This document shows, in pieces, positions 37,299 to 52,953 of a DNA stretch of 64,000 bases. The notes below the pieces were generated by a model. That model ran no database searches. It saw only the letters and a list, made by a program, of their open reading frames with translations, and had not been told where the DNA came from. Origin of the DNA: Sphingopyxis solisilvae (lineage in GTDB: Bacteria; Pseudomonadota; Alphaproteobacteria; Sphingomonadales; Sphingomonadaceae). Position numbers and translations under genes: made by a program. The stretch spans positions 1-64,000 of the forward strand of contig NZ_JADKYM010000016.1 of assembly GCF_015475875.1 (NCBI RefSeq), given 5' to 3'. Numbering within the stretch: the stretch's first letter is position 1; the number at the start of each line of letters is the position of its first letter.

Positions 37299-37440
37299 AT
37301 CCGGTCCTTTTCGCGTCGCGCGTGGCGGCTGTGTGACCGCCATGTCGTCGGAAGGCAAGCGGCTGTCGTTCGTCGAGCCGAATTTGCGATCCGGGGCAAC
37401 CCCGCTATCAAGACGCCATTGTTTCAACCGGGGAATCTCC
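37299..37440. promoter_or_regulatory. Divergent acylase/aminopeptidase spacer
   Basis: A 142-bp spacer lies between the divergent acylase and aminopeptidase genes and must hold both promoters. I cannot assign hexamers with confidence; no long dyad is evident. Confidence 0.3.
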
Positions 37441-39012
37441 ATGTATCGCAAAAGCCTGCTTCTCGCCGCCTGCCTGTCGTTCACGCTCGCCTCGCCCGCC
37501 ATCGCGCGAAATGTGACGGGCTCGGGCATCGCTCCTGCCACCGTTGCGAACAGCGCCGAGCGGCCGATCGGCTTTGCCGCCACCGCTTCTGCGGGCGGCG
37601 CGCTCGTCGTGCTGATGACCGACGCGGCACTGCCTTCGCTCGACGGGGTGGTGCTGGGCGATGCGGAGCGGCAGGCGCTTGGCGCTGCCATCGCCGCCGC
37701 GTCTTTCGACGCCAAGGCCGGATCGACACTGTCGCTGCGCGGCATCGGCGCTTTCCCGCGCATCCTGCTCGTCGGCACCGGCGCGGCGCCCACCGCGCTC
37801 GCACTTGCTGAGGCGGGCGGCAAGGCAGCGCAGGAACTGAAAAACGAAGCGCATCCGGTGACGATCGCCGGGGCGTCGAACGATACCTCGGCCGCCGACG
37901 TCGCCTATGGTTTCGCGCTCGGCCAATATCGTTTCGACCGGTACCAGACGGTGGGTAAGAAAACCCCGCCCACCGGCGCGGTTACCATCCTCGCCGCAAA
38001 CCCGGCCGCCGCCGAATCCTTTTTCGCCAGCCGTGGCAAGCCGCTCGCCGACGGGGTCCGTCTGTCGCGCGACCTGGCCAATGAACCGGCGAACGTCATC
38101 TATCCCGAAAGCTTTGTCGCCGAAGTCCGCAAGGCTTTTGCCGGAGTCGCGGGCGTGAGCATCGAGGTGCTCGACGAAGCCGCGATGCGCCGGCTCGGCA
38201 TGGGCAGCATCGTCGGCGTCGGGCAGGGCAGCCCGCGGGGGTCGCGCATGATGCTGGTGCGCTATCGCGGCAGTGGCGCGCCCGATGCGCCGCTGGCGCT
38301 GGTCGGCAAGGGCATCACCTTTGACAGCGGCGGCATTTCGATCAAACCCGCGGCGGGCATGGGCAATATGAAAGGCGACATGTCGGGTGCCGCGTCGGTC
38401 ATGGGCGCGGCGCTGTCGCTCGCCAAATCGCGCGCACCGGTGCATGTCGTCGCGGTCGCCGCACTCGCCGAGAATATGCCCGACGGCAATGCCCAGCGCC
38501 CCGGCGACGTCGTCCGCAGCATGTCGGGCAAGACGATCGAGGTCGTCAACACCGATGCCGAGGGGCGGCTGGTGCTGGCCGACGGGGTCGAATATGTCGC
38601 GCGGCAATATCGCCCGCACAGCATCGTCACCGTCGCGACGCTGACCGGCTCGATCGTCGGCGCCCTGTCGGACCAATATGCCGGCCTGTTCGCCCGCGGC
38701 GACGCGCTGGCAGATGGCCTGCTCGCCGCCGGCACCACCAGCGGCGAGGAATTGTGGCGGATGCCGCTGCACAAAAACTATGCCGAGCGGGTCAAGTCCG
38801 ACATCGCCGATATCCGTAACAGCGGCGGCGATGGTCCGGGCGCCAGCCTGGGGGCGCATTTCGTCGGCTTTTTCGTCGACGAGGCGACCCCCTGGGCCCA
38901 TCTCGACATTGCCGGGGTGAACCGCAGCGAAAAGACCAGCCCGCTGGTACCCAAGGGCATGACCGGCTTTGGTGTCCGCCTGCTCGACGCCTTTGCGCGC
39001 GGCGGGAAATAA
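37441..39012 (+). CDS. Exported leucyl aminopeptidase (M17)
   Basis: The 523-residue protein has a signal peptide (MYRKSLLLAACLSFTLASPA, then IARN), unusual for the normally cytosolic M17 family. Metal ligands are intact: Lys and Asp in GKGITFDSGG, Asp in MKGDMSGAA, and Asp/Glu in NTDAEGRLVLADG, with the catalytic Arg there. It removes N-terminal residues from peptides, probably in the periplasm. It is divergent from the acylase and lies just before clpB. Confidence 0.93.
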   Translation: MYRKSLLLAACLSFTLASPAIARNVTGSGIAPATVANSAERPIGFAATASAGGALVVLMTDAALPSLDGVVLGDAERQALGAAIAAASFDAKAGSTLSLRGIGAFPRILLVGTGAAPTALALAEAGGKAAQELKNEAHPVTIAGASNDTSAADVAYGFALGQYRFDRYQTVGKKTPPTGAVTILAANPAAAESFFASRGKPLADGVRLSRDLANEPANVIYPESFVAEVRKAFAGVAGVSIEVLDEAAMRRLGMGSIVGVGQGSPRGSRMMLVRYRGSGAPDAPLALVGKGITFDSGGISIKPAAGMGNMKGDMSGAASVMGAALSLAKSRAPVHVVAVAALAENMPDGNAQRPGDVVRSMSGKTIEVVNTDAEGRLVLADGVEYVARQYRPHSIVTVATLTGSIVGALSDQYAGLFARGDALADGLLAAGTTSGEELWRMPLHKNYAERVKSDIADIRNSGGDGPGASLGAHFVGFFVDEATPWAHLDIAGVNRSEKTSPLVPKGMTGFGVRLLDAFARGGK

Positions 39013-39019
39013 GCATGGC

Positions 39020-39080
39020 AAGCCCCTTGTGTTGTATAATGGCAACACTATCTCTCGGTGAGAGAAAGGGGCTTACCTAG
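39020..39080 (+). promoter_or_regulatory. RpoH-type heat-shock promoter and clpB leader
   Basis: CCCCTTG (39023-39029) and CTATCT (39048-39053), 18 bases apart, fit the alphaproteobacterial sigma32 consensus; TATAAT at 39034-39039 could also be a sigma70 -10 box. Downstream, TCTCTC/GAGAGA (39051-39065) is a small hairpin. AAGGGG (39066-39071) is the clpB ribosome site, 9 bases before the ATG. Confidence 0.7.
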
Positions 39081-41660
39081 ATGAACCTCGAAAAATTCAC
39101 CGACCGCGCCAAGGGCTTTTTGCAGGCGGCGCAGACGATCGCGATCCGCCTGAACCACCAGCGGATCGGCCCCGAGCATATCGCCAAGGCGCTGCTCGAG
39201 GACAGTCAGGGCATGGCGGCGGGGCTGATCGCGAACAGCGGCGGCGACGCCGCGCGCGCCGTCGCCGGGATCGATGCCTTGCTCGCCAAGGTTCCCGCGG
39301 TGTCGGGGTCGGGCGCGCAGCAAACGCCGGGGCTCGACAATGACGCCGTACGTCTGCTCGACCAGGCCGAACAGGTCGCCGCAAAGTCAGGCAACGAGTT
39401 CGTCGCGGTCCAGAATATCCTGCTCGCCATGGTGCTGGGCAGCGGGACCCCCGTGGGGAAGGCGCTCGCCGATGCCGGTGTGACACCCGAAGCGCTGAAT
39501 GCCGCGATCGCCAAGCTGACCGGCGGCCGCGCCGCCGACAGCGCCTCGGCCGAAGACCGCTATGACGCGCTCAAGAAATTCGCCCGCGACCTCACCGAGG
39601 TGGCGCGCGAGGGCAAGCTCGATCCGGTGATCGGCCGCGACGAGGAAATTCGCCGCACCGTCCAGATCCTCGCGCGCCGTACCAAGAACAACCCGGTGCT
39701 GATCGGCGAACCCGGCGTGGGCAAGACCGCGATCGCCGAGGGGCTGGCGCTGCGCATCGTCAATGGCGACGTGCCCGACAGTTTGAAGGACCGCCGCCTG
39801 CTCGCGCTCGACATGGGCGCGCTGATCGCGGGCGCCAAATATCGCGGCGAGTTCGAGGAGCGCCTCAAGGGCGTGCTCGACGATGTGAAGGCCGCCGCGG
39901 GCGAGATCATCCTGTTCATCGACGAGATGCACACGCTGGTCGGCGCGGGCAAATCCGAAGGCGCGATGGACGCATCGAACCTGCTCAAGCCCGCCTTGGC
40001 GCGCGGCGAGCTGCATTGCATCGGCGCGACGACGCTCGACGAATATCGCAAGCATGTCGAAAAAGACCCCGCGCTGCAGCGGCGCTTTCAGCCGGTGTTC
40101 GTCGGCGAACCGACGGTCGAGGATTCGATCTCGATCCTGCGCGGGATCAAGGAGAAATACGAGCTGCACCACGGGGTGCGGATCACCGACGGCGCGATCG
40201 TCGCCGCCGCGACGCTGTCGCACCGCTATATCTCCGACCGTTTCCTGCCCGACAAGGCGATCGACCTGATGGACGAAGCAGCGAGCCGCATCCGCATGGA
40301 GGTCGAATCCAAACCCGAGGAGATCGAGAGCCTCGACCGCCGCATCATCCAGATGAAGATCGAGGAGGCGGCGCTCGGCAAGGAGAGCGACGCCGCGTCG
40401 AAGGACCGGCTCGCCGCGCTCCGCGCCGAACTCGCGAACCTCGAACAGCAGTCGGCCGAACTCACGCAGAGGTGGCAGGCCGAAAAGGACAAGATCCACG
40501 CCGAGGCGAAGATCAAGGAAGAACTCGACGCCGCGCGCGGACAGCTCGAACAGGCCCAGCGCGCGGGCGACCTCGCGAAGGCAGGCGAGCTAAGCTACGG
40601 CACCATCCCCGCGCTCGAAAAGCAGCTTGCCGACGCCGAAGCCGCGGCGGGCAATGCGATGCTGCGCGAGGAAGTCACCGCCGACGACATCGCCGCGGTG
40701 GTCAGCAAATGGACCGGCATCCCGGTCGACCGGATGATGGAAGGCGAGCGCGAAAAACTGCTTTCGATGGAAAGCACGCTCGCGAAACGCGTGATTGGCC
40801 AAGACGAGGCGGTGCGCGCCGTATCGACCGCGGTGCGCCGCGCCCGCGCCGGCCTGCAGGATCCGAACCGCCCGCTCGGCAGCTTCCTCTTCCTCGGCCC
40901 CACGGGAGTCGGCAAGACCGAACTGACCAAGGCGCTGGCGCGTTTCCTGTTCGACGACGACAATGCGATGGTCCGCATCGACATGTCCGAGTTCATGGAA
41001 AAGCACAGCGTCGCGCGCCTCGTCGGCGCGCCTCCGGGCTATGTCGGCTATGAAGAGGGTGGCACGCTGACCGAGGCGGTGCGGCGCCGACCCTATCAGG
41101 TCGTGCTGTTCGACGAGGTCGAAAAGGCCCATGCCGACGTCTTCAACATCCTGCTGCAGGTGCTCGACGACGGACGCCTGACCGACGGGCAGGGGCGCAC
41201 GGTCGATTTCACCAACACGCTGATCATTCTGACGTCGAACCTCGGCAGTCAGGCGATCGCCGCGCTTCCCGACGACGCTCCGGTCGAGCAGGCCGAACCC
41301 GCTGTCATGGAAGTCGTGCGCGCCCACTTCCGGCCCGAGTTCCTCAATCGCCTCGACGAAATTGTGCTTTTCAACCGCTTGGCGCAGCAACATATGGCCG
41401 GCATCGTCGATATCCAGGTCGCGCGGGTGCAGAAACTGCTCGCCGATCGCAAGGTCACGCTCGACCTGACCGATGCCGCGCGCGCGTGGCTCGGCCGGGT
41501 GGGCTATGACCCCGTCTATGGCGCACGACCGCTGAAGCGCGCGGTGCAGAAATATCTGCAGGATCCGCTGGCCGACCTGATCCTGAAGGGCGAGGTTAGG
41601 GACGGATCAACAGTCCGGGTCGATGAAGGCGACGGAGCGCTGGCGTTGACGCCGAGTTAA
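39081..41660 (+). CDS. clpB: ClpB disaggregase
   Basis: The 859-residue Hsp100 protein has an N-domain ([13 protein letters not shown], 1-150), a first AAA+ domain with Walker [11 protein letters not shown] and Walker [11 protein letters not shown], a coiled-coil middle domain (about 400-530, with [13 protein letters not shown]), and a second AAA+ domain ([21 protein letters not shown]). It works with DnaK to extract proteins from aggregates in the cytosol. Its heat-shock promoter fits this role. Confidence 0.97.
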
Positions 41661-41669
41661 ACGCACGGG

Positions 41670-42005
41670 TCAGCACGTTCCTGTGGCGCGACAGTCTCCC
41701 GCCTTGCTGGTCATGGCATCCATCGTTTCGCGGGAGTTTTGATTGCCCCGCGTCCACGCCTGCTTCCACTGTTCATTGGTTCGGCAAACTCGCGCCTTTT
41801 TTACCAATGACCCGATTTCTTCTATTTTGCGGCATTTGATATATTGCGGGTGACTGGACGCAAGTCCTTGGTTAAAAGTGCGAATTTCGGCATTGGTCAT
41901 CTCTGACGGAACCTGTTCCGGCGGCGTGCGATCTGCGCTTGCTGTCGTTGCGCCCGGCGACGATACCAGCACCAGAATAGACATCAGCAGCGGCATCACC
42001 GGCAT
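41670..42005 (-). CDS. Cys-pair small secreted protein, paralog 1
   Basis: The 111-residue protein has a signal peptide (cleavage near ATTASA, residue 24). The mature core has IPSEM-type residues (VPSEMTNAEIRTFNQGL), then YIKCRK, a GSLVKK centre and VCRTNEQW, with two cysteines separated by exactly 15 residues. It ends with a second Cys pair (CRATGTC) absent from the other copies. It is unrecognised by name. The fourth member of a tandem array, it starts 27 bases after paralog 2. ATG 41996 is an alternative start. Confidence 0.8.
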   Translation of the reverse strand: MPVMPLLMSILVLVSSPGATTASADRTPPEQVPSEMTNAEIRTFNQGLASSHPQYIKCRKIEEIGSLVKKARVCRTNEQWKQAWTRGNQNSRETMDAMTSKAGDCRATGTC

Positions 42006-42032
42006 CCCTGGCTACACGGCGACCTTCAATGG

Positions 42033-42377
42033 TCAGCGTGGTTCGGCATGAGACATCAAATCCTGTTGGGGTTCAACCGAATTGCTCCAGCCGCGCGCCA
42101 GGGTTTCCATCGTATCGCGTGCGTCCAGATTGCCTTTGTTGGACGAAGCGATCCACTGCGCGTTGGTGCGACACACGCGGTTCTTTTTGACCAGTGATCC
42201 CGATTCCGGGATGCGACGACATTTGATATAGTCGGGATCGGTCATGGTCCGCCCCTCGTTATAGGCGTCGATTTCCTTGCCCGTCATTTCCGACGGGATT
42301 CGCGGTGCCGGATTGGTTTCACTGGCACCCGCGCCGGACACGCCAGCCAGAAAGACTCCGATCAACAATATCCGCAT
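42033..42377 (-). CDS. Cys-pair small secreted protein, paralog 2
   Basis: The 114-residue protein has a signal peptide (MRILLIGVFLAGVSGAGA), then the shared core: IPSEMTGKEIDAYNEG, YIKCRR, ESGSLVKK and VCRTNAQW, with the CX15C pair. Its C-terminus diverges (WSNSVEPQQDLMSH). GAGGTG lies 5 bases before ATG 42377. It is probably one operon with paralogs 1 and 3. Function is unknown; the conserved basic centre and paired Cys suggest a disulfide-stabilised binding protein. Confidence 0.8.
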   Translation of the reverse strand: MRILLIGVFLAGVSGAGASETNPAPRIPSEMTGKEIDAYNEGRTMTDPDYIKCRRIPESGSLVKKNRVCRTNAQWIASSNKGNLDARDTMETLARGWSNSVEPQQDLMSHAEPR

Positions 42378-42399
42378 ATCATCACCTCGCGTTTTTGGG

Positions 42400-42717
42400 T
42401 CAGTTTGAATTGCCCGCCTTACTCGTCATCGCCTCTGTTGTGTCCCGCGCATTTTGACTGCTGTTGGCGATAACCTCTTTCCATTTTGCATTCGTGCGGC
42501 AGACGCGGTTCTTTTTCACAAGCGAGCCGATTTCCACGGTCTTTCGACATTTGATGAAGTTGGGATCACTTGGCGCAAGCCCTGCATTATGCGCGTTAAT
42601 TTCGGTTGGCGTCATCGCCGACGGTGTCTTCGGGGGCGGCGCGCTTTCTTCGGCAGCAAGGGCAGCCGGCGCCACTATCAACGCCGCCGCAATCAGTGCA
42701 GTCAGGGACTTGGCCAT
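42400..42717 (-). CDS. Cys-pair small secreted protein, paralog 3
   Basis: The 105-residue protein has a signal peptide ending APAALAAEE and then TPSAMTPTEINAHNAGL, FIKCRK, EIGSLVKK and VCRTNAKW with CX15C. The following VIANSSQNARDTTEAMTSKA is closely shared with paralog 4, pointing to a recent duplication. GAGGAGGA lies 7 bases before ATG 42717, the strongest ribosome site of the array. It is the first gene of the tight three-gene set, with a 215-base gap upstream that should hold its promoter. Confidence 0.85.
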   Translation of the reverse strand: MAKSLTALIAAALIVAPAALAAEESAPPPKTPSAMTPTEINAHNAGLAPSDPNFIKCRKTVEIGSLVKKNRVCRTNAKWKEVIANSSQNARDTTEAMTSKAGNSN

Positions 42718-42932
42718 TTATATTCCTCCTCGATAGCAGACCCTGTCTGTATCACGCGCATCCGACAGATATAGCCTGAATCGGACGCCGCACGATCGGC
42801 TTTGTCGAGCTCCAAGAGCTGCGTCCTTGTCCATCACTTGGGACTGTCTTGCGCTATAGGACCGTAAATGTTCGGCGAGTCCAGCGAACGAGGTCATGGT
42901 AAAATGCCGTTGGCAAGGTCAGCGTATCGGCA

Positions 42933-43268
42933 TCAATCGCTACCCAACATATAGCTGGCTCCGCTCGCCTTGCTCGACATGGCCTCGACGGTGGCCCGGG
43001 CGTTCTGGCTGCTGTTCGCAATGACCTCCCGCCACTTGGCATTGGTTCGGCAAACGCGGTATTTTTTGACCAGCGAGCCGGTTTCCAACACCTTGCGGCA
43101 TTTGATGTAATCAGGGTCGGCCGGTGCCAGAGCTGCGTTATGGGCGGCAATCTGTGTTCGCGTCAGGGTGGACGGCATTTCTGCTGGAGCCGCCTTTTCC
43201 TGGGCGCCAACGGCTACAGGCGCCGCGATCAGTGTGGCAGCAACGAGCACAGCCGACGACGTCCCCAT
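42933..43268 (-). CDS. Cys-pair small secreted protein, paralog 4
   Basis: The 111-residue protein has a signal peptide ending APVAVGAQE and the family core: MPSTLTRTQIAAHNAAL, YIKCRK, ETGSLVKK and VCRTNAKW, with CX15C and the ANSSQNAR stretch shared with paralog 3. AGAAGGA lies 6 bases before ATG 43268; the ATG at 43274 would abut it. It is separated from the other three by 215 bases, so it may have its own promoter or read through. Confidence 0.83.
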   Translation of the reverse strand: MGTSSAVLVAATLIAAPVAVGAQEKAAPAEMPSTLTRTQIAAHNAALAPADPDYIKCRKVLETGSLVKKYRVCRTNAKWREVIANSSQNARATVEAMSSKASGASYMLGSD

Positions 43269-43392
43269 AATCATTCCTTCTCGCAACATGACGGATCCAC
43301 TACGCCCAGCAATATGTTGGGGCCCTTTGGTCACCAAGCGAATTTGCGTCCCGGGTCATTTTCGCGGCAACGAAGGATCGGGTGATGCGAGA

Positions 43393-44577
43393 TTACCGGG
43401 GTACAGCATATCCCGACTGGTCTGCTGCGGCAAAATAGCGCGTCAAAAGTTCGCGTTCGTGGGCGCTGAGATGCGGGTTCCAAACATCCAGAATCAGGAC
43501 CGCACGCAGTTCGTCGCTATCGTTCCACGCCTCATGCTCAATCGTGTCATCAAAGGCAAAAGCCTGACCCTCGATCCACTCGCGGGTCTCGCCGCCGACC
43601 CGAAAGCCGCAGCCGGGCGGGACGATCAGCGGGAGATGAACGATGGCCCGCGTATTCGTGACCCCGGTGTGGGGCGGAATACGGGTATGCGGTCGAAGCA
43701 GCGAGAAAAAGGCGCTCGGCGCGCGCCCGGCTATCCGCGCACCCGGCACGGCGGCCAACGCGGCCGCCGTCGACGGACAACGGTCGAGTACCGGCCGGTT
43801 CGGTTCGCCATATTCCCACAGAAAGCAGGCGCTCCAATCGAGCTGGTGATCGAGCGCCGACCAGATCGAGTCGGGGGTGCCGGCCTCCATCCTGACGTAA
43901 GGACGCAGGGCATCACCCGGATCGGCAAGCAGCGCTTTCAGCTCGCCGCGGATCGCCGCGGTCTGTGCTTCGAGATTGGCAAACCACGGGAAATGATGGC
44001 GATCGAAATACTCATCGGCGGGCAAAAACGGATAGTGAACGCCGGCGCATTCGTTCCGATAAATGCGGCGCCTGCCCAACGCAGCCGCGACAAAGGCGTC
44101 TCCCCGGCGCACCTCCGTTTCGGATAAGTGATCGCGCATGGGAGCAAGCGCAGCGGTGACGTTGTCCAACATGGTTCCAGTCGCGGTGTCGACAAAGGCT
44201 TCGCCCTGTTCGAGCAAGGCGGCGATTGGCGGAGGTACCGTTTCCAATTGCGCGCCCAGCGCGAGAGCCGCACTCCATGCCGACAGCGCCTCGCCCAGAT
44301 CCTGCCGCGCCTGATGGCGTTCGGCCTTCCGCAGCCACGCCATCAAGTCGCGCCGGTCGATTGCCAGCGCAGCGTCGAGCGCCTTCAACTCATTGGCGTC
44401 ATCACCGAGCGCGCGGTGTACCGAAGCCAGATTGCGCCGCAGCGCTCCCGATCCCGGATCGGCGCTGATCGCGTCGGTGAAATGGGTGATCGCAGCGGTG
44501 AAGTCACCCGCCTGAAGCGCGGCCAGACCCAGCCTGTTGGCTTCGACGGCGGCGGCGGGCGGAGGAGGGGTTGCCAT
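43393..44577 (-). CDS. TPR-containing aspartyl/asparaginyl beta-hydroxylase family protein
   Basis: The 394-residue protein has about three N-terminal tetratricopeptide repeats (NRLGLAALQAGDFTAAITHF near residue 15, then RRNLASVHRALGDDANELKA) and a C-terminal Fe(II)/2-oxoglutarate domain: RIPPHTGVTNTRAIVHLPL, GQAFAFDDTIEHEAWN and LILDVWNP carry the His/Arg ligands. It could hydroxylate Asp/Asn residues of a protein or peptide partner; TPRs would bind it. It is cytosolic. It is divergent from the sulfotransferase-like gene, 45 bases away. No strong ribosome site is seen; ATG 44613 is an alternative. Confidence 0.85.
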   Translation of the reverse strand: MATPPPPAAAVEANRLGLAALQAGDFTAAITHFTDAISADPGSGALRRNLASVHRALGDDANELKALDAALAIDRRDLMAWLRKAERHQARQDLGEALSAWSAALALGAQLETVPPPIAALLEQGEAFVDTATGTMLDNVTAALAPMRDHLSETEVRRGDAFVAAALGRRRIYRNECAGVHYPFLPADEYFDRHHFPWFANLEAQTAAIRGELKALLADPGDALRPYVRMEAGTPDSIWSALDHQLDWSACFLWEYGEPNRPVLDRCPSTAAALAAVPGARIAGRAPSAFFSLLRPHTRIPPHTGVTNTRAIVHLPLIVPPGCGFRVGGETREWIEGQAFAFDDTIEHEAWNDSDELRAVLILDVWNPHLSAHERELLTRYFAAADQSGYAVPR

Positions 44578-44622
44578 GTCGTCATGCTTGCCATCGCACC
44601 GCGCAATCGGCAAGGTTCAACG

Positions 44623-45651
44623 ATGACCGGGTTATCCGCCGCAAGCACCCTAGTCCGCGACGCCACGTGGCTGGCGCACCGTTACGACCCAGGCCATGAT
44701 GCCTTTCATTTTCGTCATGTGGCGCGCGAACGGCGAAGCGAAGTTCCATTTCTGACCGATGACTATCTTGGTCACGAGGCGGGTCCAATTGTCGTTGAAC
44801 GCAACGACTGCGCGACCGCGATCGCGGGCCAACAAGTTACGCCGCTACATTTCCTGTTTCATTCAGCATATTGCGCCTCGACAATGCTGGTGCAGGCAAT
44901 TGGCCAGCCCGGGATCGCGACCGGCCTTTCCGAACCGGTGCTCCTCAATGACATGGTTGGCTGGCGCCGCCGCGGTGCCGACCCCCGCCAGCACGGCCGG
45001 GTGATGCATGACGCGCTGTCGTTGCTGGGACGAGGGTTCGGCGGCGATCATGCCGTCGTCATCAAGCCTTCGAATATCTTCAATCCGCTGGCACGGGGCG
45101 CAATGACCTTGCGGCCGGAGGCGCGCGCGTTGTTGCTCTACGCCCCGCTACGCGCGTTTCTGTTGTCGGTAGCGCGAAAGGGGCTGGGCTGTCGCCTGTG
45201 GTGCCGCGAGTTGCTCGAGAATTATCTTGCCGACGGCTTCGTAACCTTTGGCTTCGACGCGCGCGCATATTTTCGGCAATCGGATCTGCAGATCGCCGCG
45301 GTGGGCTGGCTCGCGCAGCAACAGGCGTTCGCGGCGCTCGCAGCATGGACACCCGAGCGTATCGCGACGCTCGACAGCGAGACCCTGACCCGTGCGCCGG
45401 GTGACGCAGTCGCCGCGGCCATGGCGCACTATCAAATACCAATGGCAGATGACATCATTTCGGGTAACCCGGCGCTGTCGCGCAACAGCAAATCAGGCGC
45501 GCCTTTTGTCGCCGGCGAACGCCAGCGCGATCTGGCCGCTGCCGAAGCGGCATACGGAGCCGAGATCGACCAGGTCGTAGCCTGGGCGTCGGTCTTGGCC
45601 GAGCAAGCCGAGATCCCGCTAACGCTACCGCAACCGCTCGCACTGCCCTGA
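44623..45651 (+). CDS. Sulfotransferase-like protein (tentative)
   Basis: The 342-residue protein is not firmly recognised. PLHFLFHSAYCASTMLVQAI near residue 83 resembles the 5'-phosphosulfate-binding loop of sulfotransferases, and HAVVIKPSNIFNPLA later resembles the 3' region where these enzymes hold the adenosine phosphate. The rest is helical without known motifs. AAGG lies 7 bases before ATG 44623. Genes like this are known next to hydroxylases and TonB receptors in sphingomonads and Caulobacter, and that context supports a role with the receptor at 45752. Confidence 0.6.
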   Translation: MTGLSAASTLVRDATWLAHRYDPGHDAFHFRHVARERRSEVPFLTDDYLGHEAGPIVVERNDCATAIAGQQVTPLHFLFHSAYCASTMLVQAIGQPGIATGLSEPVLLNDMVGWRRRGADPRQHGRVMHDALSLLGRGFGGDHAVVIKPSNIFNPLARGAMTLRPEARALLLYAPLRAFLLSVARKGLGCRLWCRELLENYLADGFVTFGFDARAYFRQSDLQIAAVGWLAQQQAFAALAAWTPERIATLDSETLTRAPGDAVAAAMAHYQIPMADDIISGNPALSRNSKSGAPFVAGERQRDLAAAEAAYGAEIDQVVAWASVLAEQAEIPLTLPQPLALP

Positions 45652-45668
45652 AGCAGGATTGGCAGGCG

Positions 45669-45729
45669 CCCCGATGCCCGCCGCATCGGGGACCAAAGAA
45701 AAGGGGCGGACCTTGCGGCCCGCCCCCAG
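45669..45729. terminator. Two hairpins between convergent genes
   Basis: CCCCGATGC (45669-45677) pairs perfectly with GCATCGGGG (45683-45691). GGGGCGGACC (45703-45712) pairs with GGCCCGCCCC region (45717-45726), and on the minus strand is followed by TTTTC. The second is an intrinsic terminator for the TonB receptor gene; the first probably ends the plus-strand gene. Confidence 0.75.
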
Positions 45730-45751
45730 TTCTTGCGAAAGCGCGAAGCGA

Positions 45752-48748
45752 CTAGAACTTCAGCTTCGCCGACACCGCATAACGGCGGCCCAGCGCGTCG
45801 TAGGTCGACGGATAGGTGTTGCCGCTGTTGTAGGTAGTCGAACCGATCGTGTTGCCCAGGATCGGCGGCTGCTTGTCGAGCAGGTTCTGCACCGTGGCGG
45901 TGAACACCAGGTTCTCGCTTACGTTGAAACGCCCGGTCAGGTCGAAGTAATGCGCCGACTTGACCTTCAAGAACCGCGGATCAACCGAGTTAGCCGGACC
46001 ACCGTCATCGATGATCTGCTGCGGTTCGAATTCGACACCGTCGATCCAGCGCCACAGCAGCGACAGATCGACCTTGTCGAAGCCGAGCGTGAAGCGCTGC
46101 GAGAACTGAAGTTCCGGCTGGATCGAACCGGTGAACGAGCAGTTAACGCTATAGTATCCAACGCACTCGCGATCGATCGAGGTTGCCAGATTGACGTCCG
46201 ACCTGAACCTGGACGAGTTGGTCCAGTTACCCACGAACGACCAGTCAAGGCTGGCAAAGCCAAGATCGGTGTTCCAGTTCATCAACAGATCGATGCCGTC
46301 GGTGAACAGGCGGCCATTGTTATTCGTCTGACCGAACAGGCCGGGTGTGATGGCCGGATCGCCGTCAAGACCACCGGTGAACGGGTTACGACGAATGATC
46401 GTGCACGACGGGTCGGTTGCGCTTGCCGCCGTGAGATTCCCGAAGCAGGTCGAGATGATGTCGCCGGGCAGCGGCGCACCGATCACGTTGTTGATCTTGA
46501 TGTTATAATAATCGATCGACATCGAGAAACGCGGCAGGAACGACGGCTGCAGCACTGCACCAATGGTCCAGGTATTCGCCTTTTCCGGCTGCAACGCCAG
46601 GCTGCCACCAACGGTGATGTTCGCCTGTGCTGCCGTCGGATTGGTGATGCTGCCGATCGTGCCGACCGGAGCACCCTGTGCCAAGCAGACGGCGCGCAGG
46701 TTGGCATTGGTCGTCGGCGCTGCACCGGCACAGGGGTCGATCCCCAGGTTGGTCAGGCCAACGGTCAGCGGCGTGAACAATTCACCGATGTTCGGAGCAC
46801 GAACCGCGCGGCTGTAATTGCCGCGAAGCTTGAAGCCATTGACCGGAGTCCAGCTGCCGCCAGCCTTCCAGGTCCAAGTGTCATAACCGGCCGCACCCCG
46901 GATGCTGTAATCCGAATAGCGGATGCCGGCTTCGAGGGTCAGATTTTCGAAGAAGGGTTTGTCTTCGATCAGCGGCGCGACGAGTTCGGCATAGGCTTCA
47001 TAGACCGCATACTGACCGTCGATATCGGGGGCTGCACCGCCGGCGCCGCCGAGTTCACCCGGGGTTTTGGCGAGCAAATCCGATGCTTGCTGCGCACGAT
47101 ATTTCCGGTGTTCGCCGCCGATTGCGAAACCGATCGGCTGAACCGCGCCCGGCGAAGTAAAGCCGAGATCGCCCGAGATGATCGCGCGAACCTGCGCCAG
47201 CGAAGTCCGGTTGGTCGTCGAGCTGTTTTCCGACAGATAGTCGGCCATCGCCGGCGTGATCGACCCTTCGGGCCCGAACAGGTTGACGGGGACGCACCCG
47301 TTGGTGTTGTTCTGACAGGTCGTGGTGTTGTCGGCCAGCGATGCCTGGCGGAAACGCGACTGCAGGGTGTAGTTCTTGATCGTCTGGATATTTTCCGATT
47401 CGCCGTACGAACCTTCGATGTTCCAGTCGATCGTATCGGTGATGCCGCCGCGGGCGCCGACGCGATAATCGAAGAACGTCGTCTGATAGTCGCTGATACG
47501 CGGACCAACTTCCGGCGTCCGGCGGTTGAGCGTCACGGTGACTTCGCGATAGTTCGGATCGGTCCGTCCGGTCGCGGTCGCCGCGGCGGCGCATTCTGCC
47601 GTCGAGAAGCGAGGCGTGTAAACGCCTTCCGTCGTTGACGTGTTGAACGCACAGAACTGGCTACGCAGCGCCGCCGGCAGGAACGGATTGTTGAGGTTCA
47701 CCGTTACGGTGCCGCCGAACGAACCCGACGGAGCGATGATCGTCGACACGGTGTTCTTCGAGAACATGCCGCGCGCATAGACTTCGATCGCGTCGGATAC
47801 TTCGTAATTGCCCTGACCGTAGATGTTAAAGCGCTCGAAGGGCGTCTGGAAGATGTTGAACGGGTTGAAGTTGTAAGTGGCGAAGGTGCCGACGGCTTGT
47901 CCAGCGGCGTTGATCTGACGAACGCCTCCGTTGGCAACGGCAGGATCGGTGCTCGGCAGACCGGTCACCGGATCGATCGGGCGGGTACCCGAAAAACGCG
48001 ACGGAACGCTGGTGCCGGAACCGAAGAAGGTGTTCGAATAGCTGTCGAGCGTGTCCAGCGAGAACGAGCGCGCACCCTGATACACAGGGTCTGCCTGCTG
48101 GTAACCGATGCTCAGCACGGCGTTACCGCGGCCATCGTCGAAGTTGGCACCGATGGTCGCATCAACGCGGAAGATATTGCCGTCGCCACGCTCGGTGATC
48201 TGTTCCGAAGCGGTGACTTCCAGACCGGCGAAATCGCGCTTGGTGATGAAATTGACCACGCCGGTGATGGCGTCGGCGCCATAGGTCGTCACGGCAGCGC
48301 CGGTCAGGGCATCGACGCGCTCGATCAGCGCCAGCGGAATGTTGTTGAGGTCGACACGGCCCAGAGGATCCGACGGGGCGATGCGATTGCCGTTGAGCAG
48401 AACGATATTGCGGACCGAACCCAGGCCGCGAAGATCGACATAGGAGGCGCCGGCGTTGCCGTTGTTGACCGCCGAACCGATGTTCGGAACGACGCCGGGC
48501 AGTTCACGCAGAACTTCTTCCGCGGTGTTCGACTGCTTCAGTTCGATCGTGTCTGCCGTCGTCACGTTGACGGGCGTCGACTGCTCAAGGTTCGGATTGC
48601 GGATCAGCGTACCGGTCACGACGATTTCGCCGCCGGTGGTCGCGCTGTCCTGCGCGTCCTGCGCATAGGCAGGAGCCGAGGCCAGGGCCACGCTCAGTAC
48701 GAGCGGCGCGGCGCCTAGCTTCAGCTTGGAATATTGGGTTTTCGTCAC
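45752..48748 (-). CDS. Large TonB-dependent receptor (sphingomonad type)
   Basis: The 998-residue protein has a signal peptide ending PAYAQD, the TonB-box-like GEIVVTGTLIRNPN, a plug domain (VLRELPGVVPNIGSAVNNG, YVDLRGLGSVRNIVLLNGNR, YGADAITGVVNFIT) and a long barrel ending in Phe (AVSAKLKF). The G-T-R/L-I-R-P pattern and length place it with large sphingomonad receptors for carbohydrates or peptides rather than siderophores; the ligand is unknown. It is convergent with the sulfotransferase-like gene and likely part of the same functional cluster. Confidence 0.93.
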   Translation of the reverse strand: MTKTQYSKLKLGAAPLVLSVALASAPAYAQDAQDSATTGGEIVVTGTLIRNPNLEQSTPVNVTTADTIELKQSNTAEEVLRELPGVVPNIGSAVNNGNAGASYVDLRGLGSVRNIVLLNGNRIAPSDPLGRVDLNNIPLALIERVDALTGAAVTTYGADAITGVVNFITKRDFAGLEVTASEQITERGDGNIFRVDATIGANFDDGRGNAVLSIGYQQADPVYQGARSFSLDTLDSYSNTFFGSGTSVPSRFSGTRPIDPVTGLPSTDPAVANGGVRQINAAGQAVGTFATYNFNPFNIFQTPFERFNIYGQGNYEVSDAIEVYARGMFSKNTVSTIIAPSGSFGGTVTVNLNNPFLPAALRSQFCAFNTSTTEGVYTPRFSTAECAAAATATGRTDPNYREVTVTLNRRTPEVGPRISDYQTTFFDYRVGARGGITDTIDWNIEGSYGESENIQTIKNYTLQSRFRQASLADNTTTCQNNTNGCVPVNLFGPEGSITPAMADYLSENSSTTNRTSLAQVRAIISGDLGFTSPGAVQPIGFAIGGEHRKYRAQQASDLLAKTPGELGGAGGAAPDIDGQYAVYEAYAELVAPLIEDKPFFENLTLEAGIRYSDYSIRGAAGYDTWTWKAGGSWTPVNGFKLRGNYSRAVRAPNIGELFTPLTVGLTNLGIDPCAGAAPTTNANLRAVCLAQGAPVGTIGSITNPTAAQANITVGGSLALQPEKANTWTIGAVLQPSFLPRFSMSIDYYNIKINNVIGAPLPGDIISTCFGNLTAASATDPSCTIIRRNPFTGGLDGDPAITPGLFGQTNNNGRLFTDGIDLLMNWNTDLGFASLDWSFVGNWTNSSRFRSDVNLATSIDRECVGYYSVNCSFTGSIQPELQFSQRFTLGFDKVDLSLLWRWIDGVEFEPQQIIDDGGPANSVDPRFLKVKSAHYFDLTGRFNVSENLVFTATVQNLLDKQPPILGNTIGSTTYNSGNTYPSTYDALGRRYAVSAKLKF

Positions 48749-48953
48749 AGTGCAGTCCCTTGCTACTGGTGGAATGGATTACCCGAGTCCTTGTTTTGTC
48801 GGCGCACGCCGACGCACAAACACCCCGATAGCGTGCGGAATGATCCTTCACTGACACCGAGTAAAGCCAAATTGCGGGCTAATTCGCAGTTTCGCGACAC
48901 ATTGTGACGTATTTGCAACAAACCGGAGAAACAAAGACATACTATGCGTCGCC

Positions 48954-48972
48954 ATGTCGTTACCGACGACAT
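48954..48972. promoter_or_regulatory. 7-bp dyad upstream of TonB receptor
   Basis: ATGTCGT (48954-48960) and ACGACAT (48966-48972) are perfect inverted copies with a 5-base spacer. The dyad lies in the 265-bp spacer between the LytM peptidase stop and the receptor start. It has no T-run, so an operator is more likely than a terminator. Nothing else assignable is seen in this spacer. Confidence 0.3.
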
Positions 48973-49013
48973 ATTGTTTCAATAGAAACCAGTTTTTGCC
49001 GACAACCGATTGC

Positions 49014-49952
49014 CTATCGGCCCATCGGCGCAGCGAGTTTGGCGGGATCGAGCCGCGCGTCATTCCATTTCAGGCCCCAGTGCATATGCGGCCCGGTCGC
49101 ACGCCCCGTGCTTCCGACGGTCCCCAGCACCTGTCCCTGCACGACCCGGTCGCCGACCTTTACGTCGAGCCGCTGGCAATGGAGAAAGGCGCTCGACAGC
49201 CCCATGCCGTGATCGACGATCAGCAGATAGCCTTCGAGGGTAAAGGGCGCGTCGGCCGCGAGCGTGACGACGCCATCGGCGGGTGCGACGAAGGGCGTTC
49301 CGGCGGGCACCGCAATATCGGTGCCGCTGTGATAGCTGCCGGGCTGGCCCTGATAGACGCGCTGCGACCCGAAAACGCCCGACAGCCGCCCGGTCACCGG
49401 CCAGCGAAAGCGCTGTTTCCAGCCGTCCGATTCAACCCGCATGTCGCGCGCCGCGGCGATCAGCGCCAGCTCGGCGGGACGCCGCCGCGCGAAATCGGCG
49501 TCGCTCGCGGCGCTGCCGCGATAGGGGGCGTTGATCCGTTCGATCCGCCACGCGCCCGGCGCGACCGCGATGTCGCGCGCGATGCTGCGCCCGTCGGCCA
49601 AGGTCGCCACCAGCCGCGCCGCGGGTGCGGCGTCACGGTCGAAAGCGATCAGGAAACCGCCATCGCGGTCGAGCGCGATCGACCGTCCGTCCAGCGTCAG
49701 CGCCCGCGTCCCCCCGGGCGCTTGCCCCAGCATGGCCGCGCCCTGCTCGGCGACGCCCCGCAGGATGAAATCGCCGGGAGCCAGCGGCGCAAGCGGCGCG
49801 ACTGCCGCAGCGGGTGCAGGCGTCGGACGCGCGGGTGTGTCGACCGACGCAACCGGTCGCGCGGGCGCCTCTCCGGCGGGTACGCAACTGGCAGCGACGA
49901 TCAGCAGCGGCAGGGCAGCGGCGCAACGACCCCGGTATCGGTGACGCATCAT
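49014..49952 (-). CDS. M23 (LytM-like) peptidoglycan endopeptidase
   Basis: The 312-residue protein has an N-terminal export signal that may be a lipobox (AASC), a Pro/Ala-rich linker and a C-terminal M23 domain with zinc ligands HSGTDIAVPAGTPFVAPADG (HxxxD) and HMHWG (HxH), so it should be an active metallopeptidase cutting peptide crossbridges. Its start overlaps the DUF2093 stop (ATGA at 49949-49952). It is third in an xseA-DUF2093-M23 operon. Confidence 0.93.
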   Translation of the reverse strand: MMRHRYRGRCAAALPLLIVAASCVPAGEAPARPVASVDTPARPTPAPAAAVAPLAPLAPGDFILRGVAEQGAAMLGQAPGGTRALTLDGRSIALDRDGGFLIAFDRDAAPAARLVATLADGRSIARDIAVAPGAWRIERINAPYRGSAASDADFARRRPAELALIAAARDMRVESDGWKQRFRWPVTGRLSGVFGSQRVYQGQPGSYHSGTDIAVPAGTPFVAPADGVVTLAADAPFTLEGYLLIVDHGMGLSSAFLHCQRLDVKVGDRVVQGQVLGTVGSTGRATGPHMHWGLKWNDARLDPAKLAAPMGR

Positions 49953-50161
49953 GCGCCGCGCGCGGCGTCCAGATCGGCCTGCACCGAAATAGCGGCACTC
50001 GCATAAGGTTCCTGCCGCGCCACCGACCAATAGCGCAGCTCGTCAAGCCCGATCGGCACGCCGGTCACCGAGCACAGTACGTGATCGCCCGGTTCGAGAA
50101 CGCGGTAGCCGTTAGGACCATAGTGGAGGCGGGCGAGGCGGTTGCGGCTGGCGATCAGCAT
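49949..50161 (-). CDS. DUF2093 family protein
   Basis: The 70-residue protein matches DUF2093: ARLHYGPNGYRVLEPGDHVL, CSVTGVPIGLDELRYWSVAR and QEPYASA. These small alphaproteobacterial proteins have no established function, though the Cys may bind metal. It lies between xseA (76 bases upstream) and the LytM peptidase (4-base overlap), a position I would expect to be conserved. Confidence 0.85.
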   Translation of the reverse strand: MLIASRNRLARLHYGPNGYRVLEPGDHVLCSVTGVPIGLDELRYWSVARQEPYASAAISVQADLDAARGA

Positions 50162-50237
50162 GATTTATGTCCGTGGAAAGCTTCAGTGGCGTCGACCACT
50201 ATAGCAGCCGACGACGATGGGGCCACCCCCGGCAATG

Positions 50238-51662
50238 TCAGAACAGCTCGCCCTGTCCTCTTTTGGGCGGCGGGACAGGCGGGCGGCGGGCAGGACGCGG
50301 CGCGGCGGGCGGCGGCGGATCGCTGCCCGCGGAGGCAACCAGAATCTCGCCATCGGCGAATTGCAATCGCAGGTGCCCGGCGTCTTGCGCGCGGGCGGCG
50401 GTGGTGACGATCGCGCCACCCGCATCGCGGACCATCGCATAGCCGCGCGACAACAAGGCGCGCGGGTCGAGGCTGTCGAGCAGGCGCCCCAGCCCCTCCA
50501 GCCGCGCGCGGTCCCGATCCCAGCGCCGCGCCAGCAATGCGGGGCGCAGCGCAGCGCCGCGCGTCGCCAGCCGGTCCGCAACCATCGTCAGCCGCTGCCG
50601 CTGGCTGCGGTCAAGGCGGTCGCCCGCTTCGTCGAGCCGCTGGCGCTGCGGCGCATAGAGCGCCTCGCGCCGCGGCAGATGGCGCGCCAGCGCGGTCAGC
50701 CGTTCGTTCGCCAGCGCCTGATGGCGATTGGCGGCGCCGATCATCCGGCCGTTCCATGTCGCCAGCAATTCCTGCAGTTCGGCGCGCACCGGCACCGCCA
50801 TTTCGGCGGCCGCGGTCGGGGTCGGCGCGCGGCGGTCGGCGGCATAGTCGGCCAGCGTCGTGTCGGTTTCGTGCCCGACCGCGCTGATCGTCGGGATGCC
50901 GCAATCGGCGATCGCGCGCACCACGATCTCTTCGTTGAACGCCCACAGGTCCTCGATCGACCCACCGCCGCGCGCGACGATCACCAGGTCGGGGCGCGGC
51001 ACCGGCCCGTCGGGTGTCAGCGCATCGAAACCGCGGACGGCCTTCGCGACCTGCGCCGCAGCGCCGTCGCCCTGCACCAGCACCGGCCAGACGATGACAT
51101 GCGTCGGAAAACGATCGGCCAGGCGGTGGAGGATGTCGCGGATCACCGCACCTGTCGGCGAGGTCACGACCCCAATGATCCGTGGCAGGCGCGGCAAGTC
51201 CTGCTTCCGCTCCTGATCGAACAATCCCTCGGCGCCCAGCCGCGCCTTGAGCTTTTCGAACAAGAGCATCAGGGCGCCCTCGCCCGCAACCTCAAGCGTA
51301 TCGACGACGAGCTGATATTTCGAGCGCCCCGGATAGGTTGTGAGCTTGCCGGTCGCGATCACCTCGATCCCGTCCTCGGGCCGGAACGCCAGCCGCGCCG
51401 CCTGCCCTTTCCACATCACCATGTCGATCAGCGCGTTATCGTCTTTCAGCGCCGCATAGAAATGCCCCGACGCGGCACGTTTCGCGCCCGACAGCTCGCC
51501 GCGCACGCGTACCCGCGCAAAGCCGTCCTCGACCGTGCGCTTGATCGCCGCCGACAATTGGCTGACCGACAGCGGCGGAACATTGTCGCCGGACGTCGCC
51601 TCGGCTAACAGCCGCGCCGCGGGGTCGGTTTCGGACGCCGGATCGGGAAAAGGGACAGACAT
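50238..51662 (-). CDS. xseA: Exodeoxyribonuclease VII large subunit
   Basis: The 474-residue protein has the N-terminal OB fold ([29 protein letters not shown]) and the catalytic domain ([59 protein letters not shown]), followed by coiled-coil helices and a Pro-rich tail ending GQGELF. With XseB it degrades single-stranded DNA. ATG 51662 shares two bases with the divergent purD ATG at 51661. CAGGA 5 bases upstream is its likely ribosome site, inside purD. Confidence 0.96.
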
Positions 51663-52953
51663 GAATATCCTGCTGGTCGGCTCGGGGGGCCGCGAACATG
51701 CGCTGAGCTGGCAGTTGGCGCAATCGCCGTCTTGCCGCAAGCTCTATGCCGCCCCCGGCAACCCGGGGATCGAGGCGTTTGCCGAATGCCTGGCGGTCGC
51801 CGCCGACGATCTCGACGGCCTGATCGGCGCCTGCGCGGCGCATGCGATCGATTTTGTCGTCGTCGGTCCCGAGGCACCGCTGGTCGCGGGGCTTGCCGAC
51901 CGGCTGCGCGCAAAGGGCGTCGCGGTCTTTGGTCCCGGTGCCGCGGCGGCCCAGCTCGAAGGGTCAAAGGGCTTCACCAAGGATTTGTGTGCGCGCGCGG
52001 GCATCCCGACCGCGGCCTATGTCCGCTGCACCAGCGCCGACGAGGCGCTGGCCGCACTCACGGATTTCAGCATCCCCGTCGTGATCAAGGCCGACGGGCT
52101 CGCCGCAGGCAAAGGCGTCGTCATCGCCGAGACGCGCGCCGACGCCGAAGCCGCGATCGCCGATATGTTCGACGGCGCCTTCGGCAGCGCGGGTGCCGCG
52201 GTGGTGATCGAGGAATTTATGACCGGCGAGGAAGCGAGCTTTTTCGCGCTGTCCGACGGCACTAATGTGATGGCGTTCGGCAGCGCGCAGGACCATAAGC
52301 GCGTCGGCGACGGCGATGTCGGACCGAACACCGGCGGCATGGGCGCCTACAGCCCCGCACCGGTGCTTACCCCCGACCTCGAAGCACAGGTGATCGATCG
52401 CATCATCCGCCCGACCGTCGCCGCGCTCGCCGCCGAGGGCACCCCCTATGTCGGCGTGCTGTTCGCCGGGCTGATGCTGACCGATGCGGGGCCGAAGCTC
52501 ATCGAATATAACGCGCGCTTCGGCGATCCCGAATGCCAGGTGCTGATGATGCGCTATACCGGCGATCTGGCCGCGCTGCTTTACGCGGCTGCGACCGGCG
52601 CACTGGCGACCGCATCGCCGCCCGCCTTTGCCAGCGGCTATGCGCTGACTGTCGTCATGGCGGCGAATGGCTATCCGGCCACCCCCGAAAAAGGCGGTGC
52701 GATCGATGGCATCGCGGAGGCGGAAAGCGGCGGGGTGCGCGTCTTTCACGCCGGTACCGCGCGCGACGGCGATAGGATCGTTGCCGCAGGCGGGCGCGTG
52801 CTCAACGTCACCGCGACCGGCCGGACGGTGACCGAAGCACAGCAACGCGCCTATGCGGCGGTCGACCGGATCGATTTCGCGAGCGGCTTCTGCCGCCGTG
52901 ACATCGGGTGGCGCGAGGTCGCGCGCGAAACGCGTTCGGGCGGCGAGGCTTGA
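51661..52953 (+). CDS. purD: Phosphoribosylamine-glycine ligase
   Basis: The 430-residue ATP-grasp enzyme of purine synthesis begins [17 protein letters not shown] and has the ATP-grasp core ([53 protein letters not shown]). AAGGGA lies 5 bases before ATG 51661, inside the xseA coding region. An upstream extension exists only as the antisense of xseA and is not used. Confidence 0.97.

Follow-up and report, generated by a model that had tools for sequence, protein, structure and literature searches.

A locus in a 64,000-nucleotide stretch of Sphingopyxis solisilvae DNA (assembly GCF_015475875.1, contig NZ_JADKYM010000016.1, positions 1 to 64,000; the whole stretch is called the window here) was interpreted, with a probability of roughly 0.4, as a cassette for protein modification that serves a single TonB-dependent receptor. 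The locus contains open reading frames predicted to encode an aspartyl/asparaginyl β-hydroxylase-type oxygenase (HYD), a sulfotransferase-fold protein (SULF), the TonB-dependent receptor (TBDR), and four small exported proteins (SM1 to SM4). According to this interpretation, the receptor system includes an exported polypeptide that HYD and SULF would modify in the cytosol, ahead of its Sec export, with HYD hydroxylating a side chain and SULF adding a sulfuryl group, and the SM proteins would serve as exported accessory partners. Both the protein nature of the client and its identity are inferred; the receptor precursor would be the most likely client because no partner other than the receptor accompanies SULF in nearly all genomes. 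The lines of evidence supporting the cassette are a fold resembling that of tyrosylprotein sulfotransferases (TPSTs) in SULF, an active site resembling that of human AspH in HYD, the linkage of SULF to the receptor, and the recurrence of the same two chemistries in related loci. The features of the locus are as follows.

41670 to 42005, minus strand: SM1, small protein with two cysteines and, by eye, a Sec-type signal sequence (family alignments)
42033 to 42377, minus strand: SM2, small protein with two cysteines and, by eye, a Sec-type signal sequence (family alignments)
42400 to 42717, minus strand: SM3, small protein with two cysteines and, by eye, a Sec-type signal sequence (family alignments)
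42933 to 43274, minus strand: SM4, small protein with two cysteines and, by eye, a Sec-type signal sequence (family alignments)
43393 to 44577, minus strand: HYD, aspartyl/asparaginyl β-hydroxylase-type 2-oxoglutarate (2OG) oxygenase linked to tetratricopeptide repeats (TPRs), 394 amino acids, ATG at 44577 (PF05118 and TPR matches)
44578 to 44622, no strand: divergent gap of 45 bases between the ATG codons of HYD and SULF (start-codon coordinates)
44623 to 45651, plus strand: SULF, sulfotransferase-fold protein of no Pfam or NCBIfam family, 342 amino acids, ATG at 44623 (predicted structure)
45752 to 48748, minus strand: TBDR, large TonB-dependent receptor with conserved cysteines, 998 amino acids, GTG at 48748 (PF00593 and PF07715)

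The three genes named in a preliminary description of this DNA were all recovered, with HYD bearing TPRs and PF05118, SULF diverging from it, and the large receptor converging on SULF with 100 bases between them. Both the barrel and the plug domain of the receptor were detected (PF00593, E = 3e-32; PF07715, E = 3.3e-19). The four tandem SM paralogues (41670 to 43274, minus strand), which lie downstream of HYD on the same strand, form a fourth part of the locus that was absent from that description. A longer HYD starting from TTG at 44613 is possible, and the gap between HYD and SULF was 43 bases in 14 of 21 Sphingopyxis-type loci (L001 to L021).

Linkage of SULF to the receptor is conserved. 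A SULF profile was searched against 196 genomes of the order, and matches of at least 300 bits, found in 35 genomes including the window's own, were treated as orthologues. Neighborhoods were read for all 34 orthologue loci other than that of the window and for 28 distant matches (<300 bits) from 26 fetched loci; the genome searches scored a limited number of candidates per genome, and the genome counts are not independent of descent. All 24 loci fetched by SULF alone contained HYD and an SM-like gene, and 23 contained the receptor, the remaining one (L007) being a 3.7-kb contig that ended before the receptor position. The grouping of HYD, SULF, and receptor is therefore not due to chance. In three Sphingomonas loci, SM was located between HYD and SULF, and none of the genes flanking the locus in the window (encoding ClpB, LAP, M23, XseA, and PurD) could be matched in the 17 kb retrieved, which means that the gene group was kept together in another place. 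Across the 34 orthologue loci, an antiparallel receptor was present within 5 kb of SULF in 32 (L079 being a fragment at a contig end), SM was present within 5 kb in 24 (22 passing an overlap filter, with L068 and L075 added), and HYD was present in 22. The 28 distant homologues had no antiparallel receptor within 5 kb and one receptor on the same strand (L115). A fixed trio of HYD, SULF, and receptor was considered and rejected, given that 12 of the 34 loci lacked HYD; in one of these, L077, the contig stops about 1 kb past SULF.

A receptor profile, built mainly from SULF-linked receptors and applied to four candidates per genome at a cutoff of E = 1e-240, matched 48 of the 196 genomes. These comprised 34 of the 35 SULF genomes and 14 genomes without SULF (Fisher test, P = 1.1e-25, not corrected for descent), from which it follows that SULF goes with the receptor and not the reverse. 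The lone SULF genome outside the receptor set (G082) held a receptor fragment at a contig end, and in two others (G065 and G034) SULF was not beside the receptor, which was encoded elsewhere in the genome. Among the eight SULF genomes of family f5, none of which had SM at E = 1e-15, six had the receptor beside SULF and a seventh had a receptor fragment at a contig end. The suggestion in the preliminary description of a cytosolic modification tied to the receptor gains from the peptide-type fold of SULF, from the absence of evident signal peptides in the enzymes, and from this near-constant association, but its form as a fixed set of three genes was not borne out. Fourteen further receptor loci were inspected, and 12 showed no labelled gene other than receptors; eight of these were in genomes without a SULF orthologue (L202 to L207, L214, and L215), and four were in genomes in which SULF is elsewhere. 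Conservation of the neighborhood, which had been proposed as a check, held in the direction from SULF to receptor; receptor relatives with neither enzyme, one of the two observations that the preliminary description had named as refuting, were also found. The six of these eight that were included in the receptor tree (L202 to L207) fell outside its main SULF-bearing branch. The presence of SULF required 4 changes on the tree compared with a mean of 13.7 for shuffled labels, and the main branch contained 45 rows with SULF, one second copy, and one row without SULF (L183), whose locus has HYD and a TPR-sulfotransferase.

The sulfotransferase-like label given to the gene at 44623 was upheld by structure prediction. 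The best AlphaFold2 model of SULF had a mean predicted local distance difference test score (pLDDT) of 80.4 and a predicted template modeling score of 0.83, with the other four models lower (pLDDT, 55.8 to 68.4). Compared to the PDB with Foldseek, the model gave 15 matches at E ≤ 0.001, all of them sulfotransferases, and the best was a TPST (E = 1.1e-5). Alignment with VIA-align gave a Z score of 15.0 against TPST1 with gastrin peptide (226 residues aligned, 4.3-Å root mean square deviation) and Z scores of about 12 against heparan sulfotransferases. That the modeled SULF has a sulfotransferase fold, nearest to the TPSTs, can be regarded as settled. TPST1 and TPST2 share this fold and top both structural rankings; the likeness is one of fold, at 12 to 16% identity, and SULF differs in having no evident signal peptide. 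No sulfotransferase model in Pfam matched any of 20 SULF relatives, and none in NCBIfam matched the window protein (both at E = 0.1); because no curated model matches, SULF was assigned by fold and not to a named family.

Across 54 orthologue rows, some of them near-identical, H80, S81, S86, T87, E104, P105, K148, P149, S150, S182, and K186 of SULF were invariant, and E104, P105, and K148 were also invariant in 17 distant rows. The 5' loop read H-S-[AG]-[YF]-C-x-S-T in orthologues (C in 53 of 54). Profile alignment with the TPR-sulfotransferases of related loci was collinear but weak (hhalign E = 0.0033, probability 9.6); it placed their 5' loop R-S-G-T-T opposite Y83-C-A-S-T87, E484 opposite E104, and S568 opposite S182. 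In this placement, SULF has an altered version of the loop that retains the Ser. The replacement of R-S-G-T-T in this loop and the lack of an arginine at the aligned 3' position would fit a degenerate sulfotransferase that transfers no sulfate and serves the receptor as a binding or folding factor. Conservation of the kind seen at E104, P105, K148, P149, S150, and S182 would be unusual at a dead site, however, and such a role is considered very improbable. A distant SULF-like family (L091 to L104 and L106), commonly with the loop H-T-[AS]-F-C-R-S-T, was found away from receptors of the TBDR type.

HYD matched PF05118 with an E value of 1.2e-41 (142.6 bits against a cutoff of 22.6), and TPRs were also detected. 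Residues S292, H303, H314, H348, and R358 were invariant across 18 aligned rows and aligned with Ser668, His679, His690, His725, and Arg735 of human AspH (residues as given in PMC6817910). H303 and H348, together with R358, correspond to the two-histidine iron site and the 2OG-binding arginine, as in human AspH. Both proteins have a TPR domain followed by an alignable oxygenase domain, with the iron and 2OG residues and the neighboring serine and histidine in common; HYD differs in being a bacterial protein of 394 amino acids with no evident signal or anchor, and no EGF-like domain was noted in the locus. Because no signal or anchor is evident in its sequence, HYD is probably cytosolic. According to PMC6817910, a TPR-oxygenase construct of human AspH hydroxylates an epidermal growth factor (EGF)-like substrate and the isolated oxygenase domain does not, the TPR domain contacts the substrate peptide, and human AspH calls for a disulfide-cyclised substrate. 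Since human AspH needs its TPR domain for this substrate, a TPR-bearing relative such as HYD is, by analogy, more likely to act on a peptide.

An alternative is a nonprotein client, either the ligand that is imported or a glycan or lipid of the cell surface. The relatives of HYD in NCBIfam act as hydroxylases of lipid acyl chains (OlsC, E = 4e-25; LpxO, E = 3.2e-12; both far under the curated cutoff), heparan sulfotransferases reach a Z of about 12 in the structural comparison versus 15 for TPST, and a ligand is conceivable as client because the receptor is the constant partner. Set against these points are the TPRs of HYD, the solved-structure matches of its oxygenase domain, which at E = 0.01 were all named aspartyl/asparaginyl β-hydroxylase (best, 1.9e-27), and the renewed presence of TPR-bearing enzymes in related loci. 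A nonprotein client was judged rather unlikely. Two further PF05118 genes occur in the window's genome, one adjoining TonB receptor matches (L199; G000:C23:14000-32000) and one with no receptor of the TBDR type nearby (L200).

Related loci were examined in two additional sets. Forty HYD-centered loci were chosen nonrandomly, by going down the hit list and taking frames of at least 340 amino acids outside the loci already in the set, with some listed hits left out and with the knowledge that some hits (e.g., in G179 and G180) were near other cluster hits. Forty SM-centered loci were chosen by going down part of the SM hit list, outside SULF loci. A receptor of the TBDR type was present within 1 kb in 15 of the HYD-centered loci (binomial P = 2.8e-7, indicative only, the 8.2% expectation having been worked out by hand from the 45 receptors of one genome), and SM was present within 5 kb in one. 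Of the 17 SM-centered loci with a receptor, 14 had a TPR-sulfotransferase (PF13469) or a TPR 2OG-Fe(II) oxygenase (PF13759), names that rest on one representative each, and 8 of the 34 SULF loci also had one of these in the stretch. Taken with the SULF loci, these sets indicate that such receptors repeatedly adjoin a TPR-bearing hydroxylase, a sulfotransferase, or both. The receptor-bound enzymes change between loci, and the two-chemistry theme stays. A broader version of the proposal, in which AspH-type hydroxylation and TPST-like sulfation of the receptor or a small partner precede export from the cytosol and the locus is one of a series of modular cassettes exchanging TPR-AspH, TPR 2OG-Fe(II) oxygenase, TPR-sulfotransferase, and TPST-like enzymes, was considered unlikely in that full form. 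One run of genes (L160; G120:C3:524500-540788) contained two HYD, a distant SULF, a TPR-oxygenase, a TPR-sulfotransferase, and two SM, with no receptor within the stretch, which stops at a contig end.

The SM paralogues have in common the motif C-R-K/R-x-x-E-x-G-S-L-V-K-K-x-R-V-C-R-T-N. Across 24 aligned rows, C59, G66, C75, T77, and W81 were invariant and S67 was nearly so, and no Asp, Asn, or Tyr was invariant. The 24 members matched no Pfam family (best E = 0.014), and no solved structure was matched at E = 10. The single-sequence structure model of SM3 (pLDDT, 62.6), a hairpin followed by a helix, was too weak for a fold search. At E = 1e-15, SM was found in each of the 27 f1 genomes with SULF (f1 being the window's family), with SM on a contig other than that of SULF in G035 and G097, in none of the 8 SULF genomes of f5, and in 7 genomes without SULF; at E = 1e-5, it was found in 87 of the 196 genomes of the order and in 6 of 289 genomes of the class outside the window's family, among them a 3.2-kb locus (L218) with SM and no other labelled gene. 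Of the 40 SM-centered loci, 17 had a receptor, another 17 lay in a housekeeping setting, and the remaining 6 were of other kinds.

These distributions bear on the possibility that SM is itself the substrate, a ribosomal peptide that, after cytosolic hydroxylation and sulfation, would leave by Sec export and work outside the cell with the receptor in the manner of methanobactin. The presence of SM in every f1 SULF genome and in most SULF loci, the invariant T77 and nearly invariant S67, the enzymes in 14 of the 17 receptor-bearing SM-centered loci, the retention of SM with HYD and SULF in the receptor-free locus of G065 (L063), and the methanobactin precedent (PMC3621798) all favor this possibility. 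The f5 SULF genomes, however, dispense with SM at the same threshold and keep the receptor beside SULF in six cases, with a fragment in a seventh; the alignment offers no invariant Asp, Asn, or Tyr; HYD-centered loci have a nearby receptor in 15 of 40 and SM in 1 of 40; and the 17 housekeeping loci have neither receptor nor cluster enzymes. SM as the substrate was regarded as quite unlikely. SM as a universal partner was rejected on account of its absence from the eight f5 SULF genomes and its proximity to HYD in 1 of 40 HYD-centered loci.

The housekeeping SM paralogue lies among genes of the SHMT, NrdR, RpiB, SpoU, and S4 families, a conserved setting with no receptor or cluster enzyme in the stretch (L127, L128, L133, L138, L139, L141 to L143, L145, L148, L149, L152 to L154, L158, L159, and L161), and the window's own genome also has such a paralogue (G000:C1:123402-123605). 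A cysteine-pair pattern, used to look for divergent SM where a locus had no SM match, gave nothing convincing. Inspection of 17 HYD-bearing loci without SM for other small exported peptides gave one suggestive case, a 44-amino-acid frame at L178:7719-7850 (plus strand) between a receptor and an AspH-type gene, which has a signal-like start and two cysteines and is unlike SM by eye. This frame could be a client peptide.

Receptor alignments were searched for residues that track the enzymes. The receptor has a short Asn-rich loop bracketed by C478 and C485. At loose thresholds, 16 columns followed HYD, including one Asp (D427) and no Asn, and 15 followed SULF, two of them Tyr; Y460 was present in 92% of receptors with SULF and 7% of those without. 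Several observations count against the proposed cassette. No receptor residue tracked SULF or HYD cleanly: the four SULF-associated receptors of the tree's other half had F or W in place of Y460, and Y611, T155, and S330 were kept in three of these four (one branch), not in the fourth, and occurred also in 4, 4, and 2 of 15 receptors without SULF. When positions 155, 330, 427, 460, 611, and 666 were checked in the same four receptors, no SULF-following residue was kept in all. Receptor relatives exist without HYD or SULF, and G065 keeps HYD, SULF, and SM together without the receptor (L063). The construction of the receptor profile and the scoring of four candidates favor finding SULF-linked receptors, and the correlation between SULF and receptor distances (r = 0.825 over 48 loci, with 0 of 999 permutations as high; 0.564 over 33 loci), though it speaks for the cassette, is expected from shared descent. 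SULF has Y83 and A174 where the phosphate motifs of TPR-sulfotransferases have arginines, as placed by the weak alignment above (hhalign probability 9.6, E = 0.0033); with these arginines not at the aligned positions, 3'-phosphoadenosine 5'-phosphosulfate is no more than a putative donor for SULF. Finally, the reducing cytosol would not favor a disulfide-cyclised substrate of the kind that human AspH calls for. If the proposed modification of the receptor system is correct, such side-chain chemistry would tune a receptor and add a new layer to outer-membrane biology. The co-occurrence of this receptor with its sulfotransferase in 34 of 35 genomes offers a defined case in which a link between protein modification and uptake can be tested, and it narrows the substrate search to one receptor and four small proteins.

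Comparable arrangements are known. RaxST of Xanthomonas is a bacterial sulfotransferase acting on an exported peptide, RaxX, by tyrosine sulfation, and its gene set differs from the present one. In TonB receptor loci with flavin halogenases, a receptor stands beside an amino-acid-modifying enzyme of other chemistry, although a search of the open literature gave no paper on them. No account of the present gene set was found in the open literature, outside of which lie preprints and most subscription papers. Similar gene groups had been described as known in Caulobacter, a statement that found no backing: SULF was matched at E = 1e-30 in 2 of the 289 genomes of the class, both from the window's family, and no paper was found. 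Both enzymes belong or are related to known families. The nearest working analogue is the methanobactin operons, which, according to PMC3621798, combine a peptide gene with a TonB-dependent transporter (MbnT) and, in some groups, a sulfotransferase (MbnS); the likeness is the occurrence of such a transporter, a small peptide gene, and a sulfotransferase in one locus. MbnS belongs to PF00685, whereas SULF matches no Pfam sulfotransferase, and SM has a Sec-type signal by eye. The comparison covers the transporter, peptide, and sulfotransferase of a system that also has MbnB/MbnC and a MATE exporter. The locus is not assigned to the methanobactin system.

One further feature lies between SULF and the receptor gene.

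45702 to 45727, minus strand: terminator-like stem of 11 pairs just 3' of the receptor gene (stem scan)

This stem is weak evidence for a terminator because 9 such sites were found in the region compared with 7.5 in shuffled sequences. A search for sigma-70 promoters likewise gave 3 sites versus 2.1 in shuffles, and Rfam gave no match in 36000 to 52000. No plasmid carriage of SULF was found, and anti-phage models did not match HYD, SULF, or SM4. The host genome of 3.38 Mb encodes 45 TonB receptor plug domains, and a second TonB-dependent receptor of 766 amino acids is located elsewhere in the window (3747 to 6047, minus strand).

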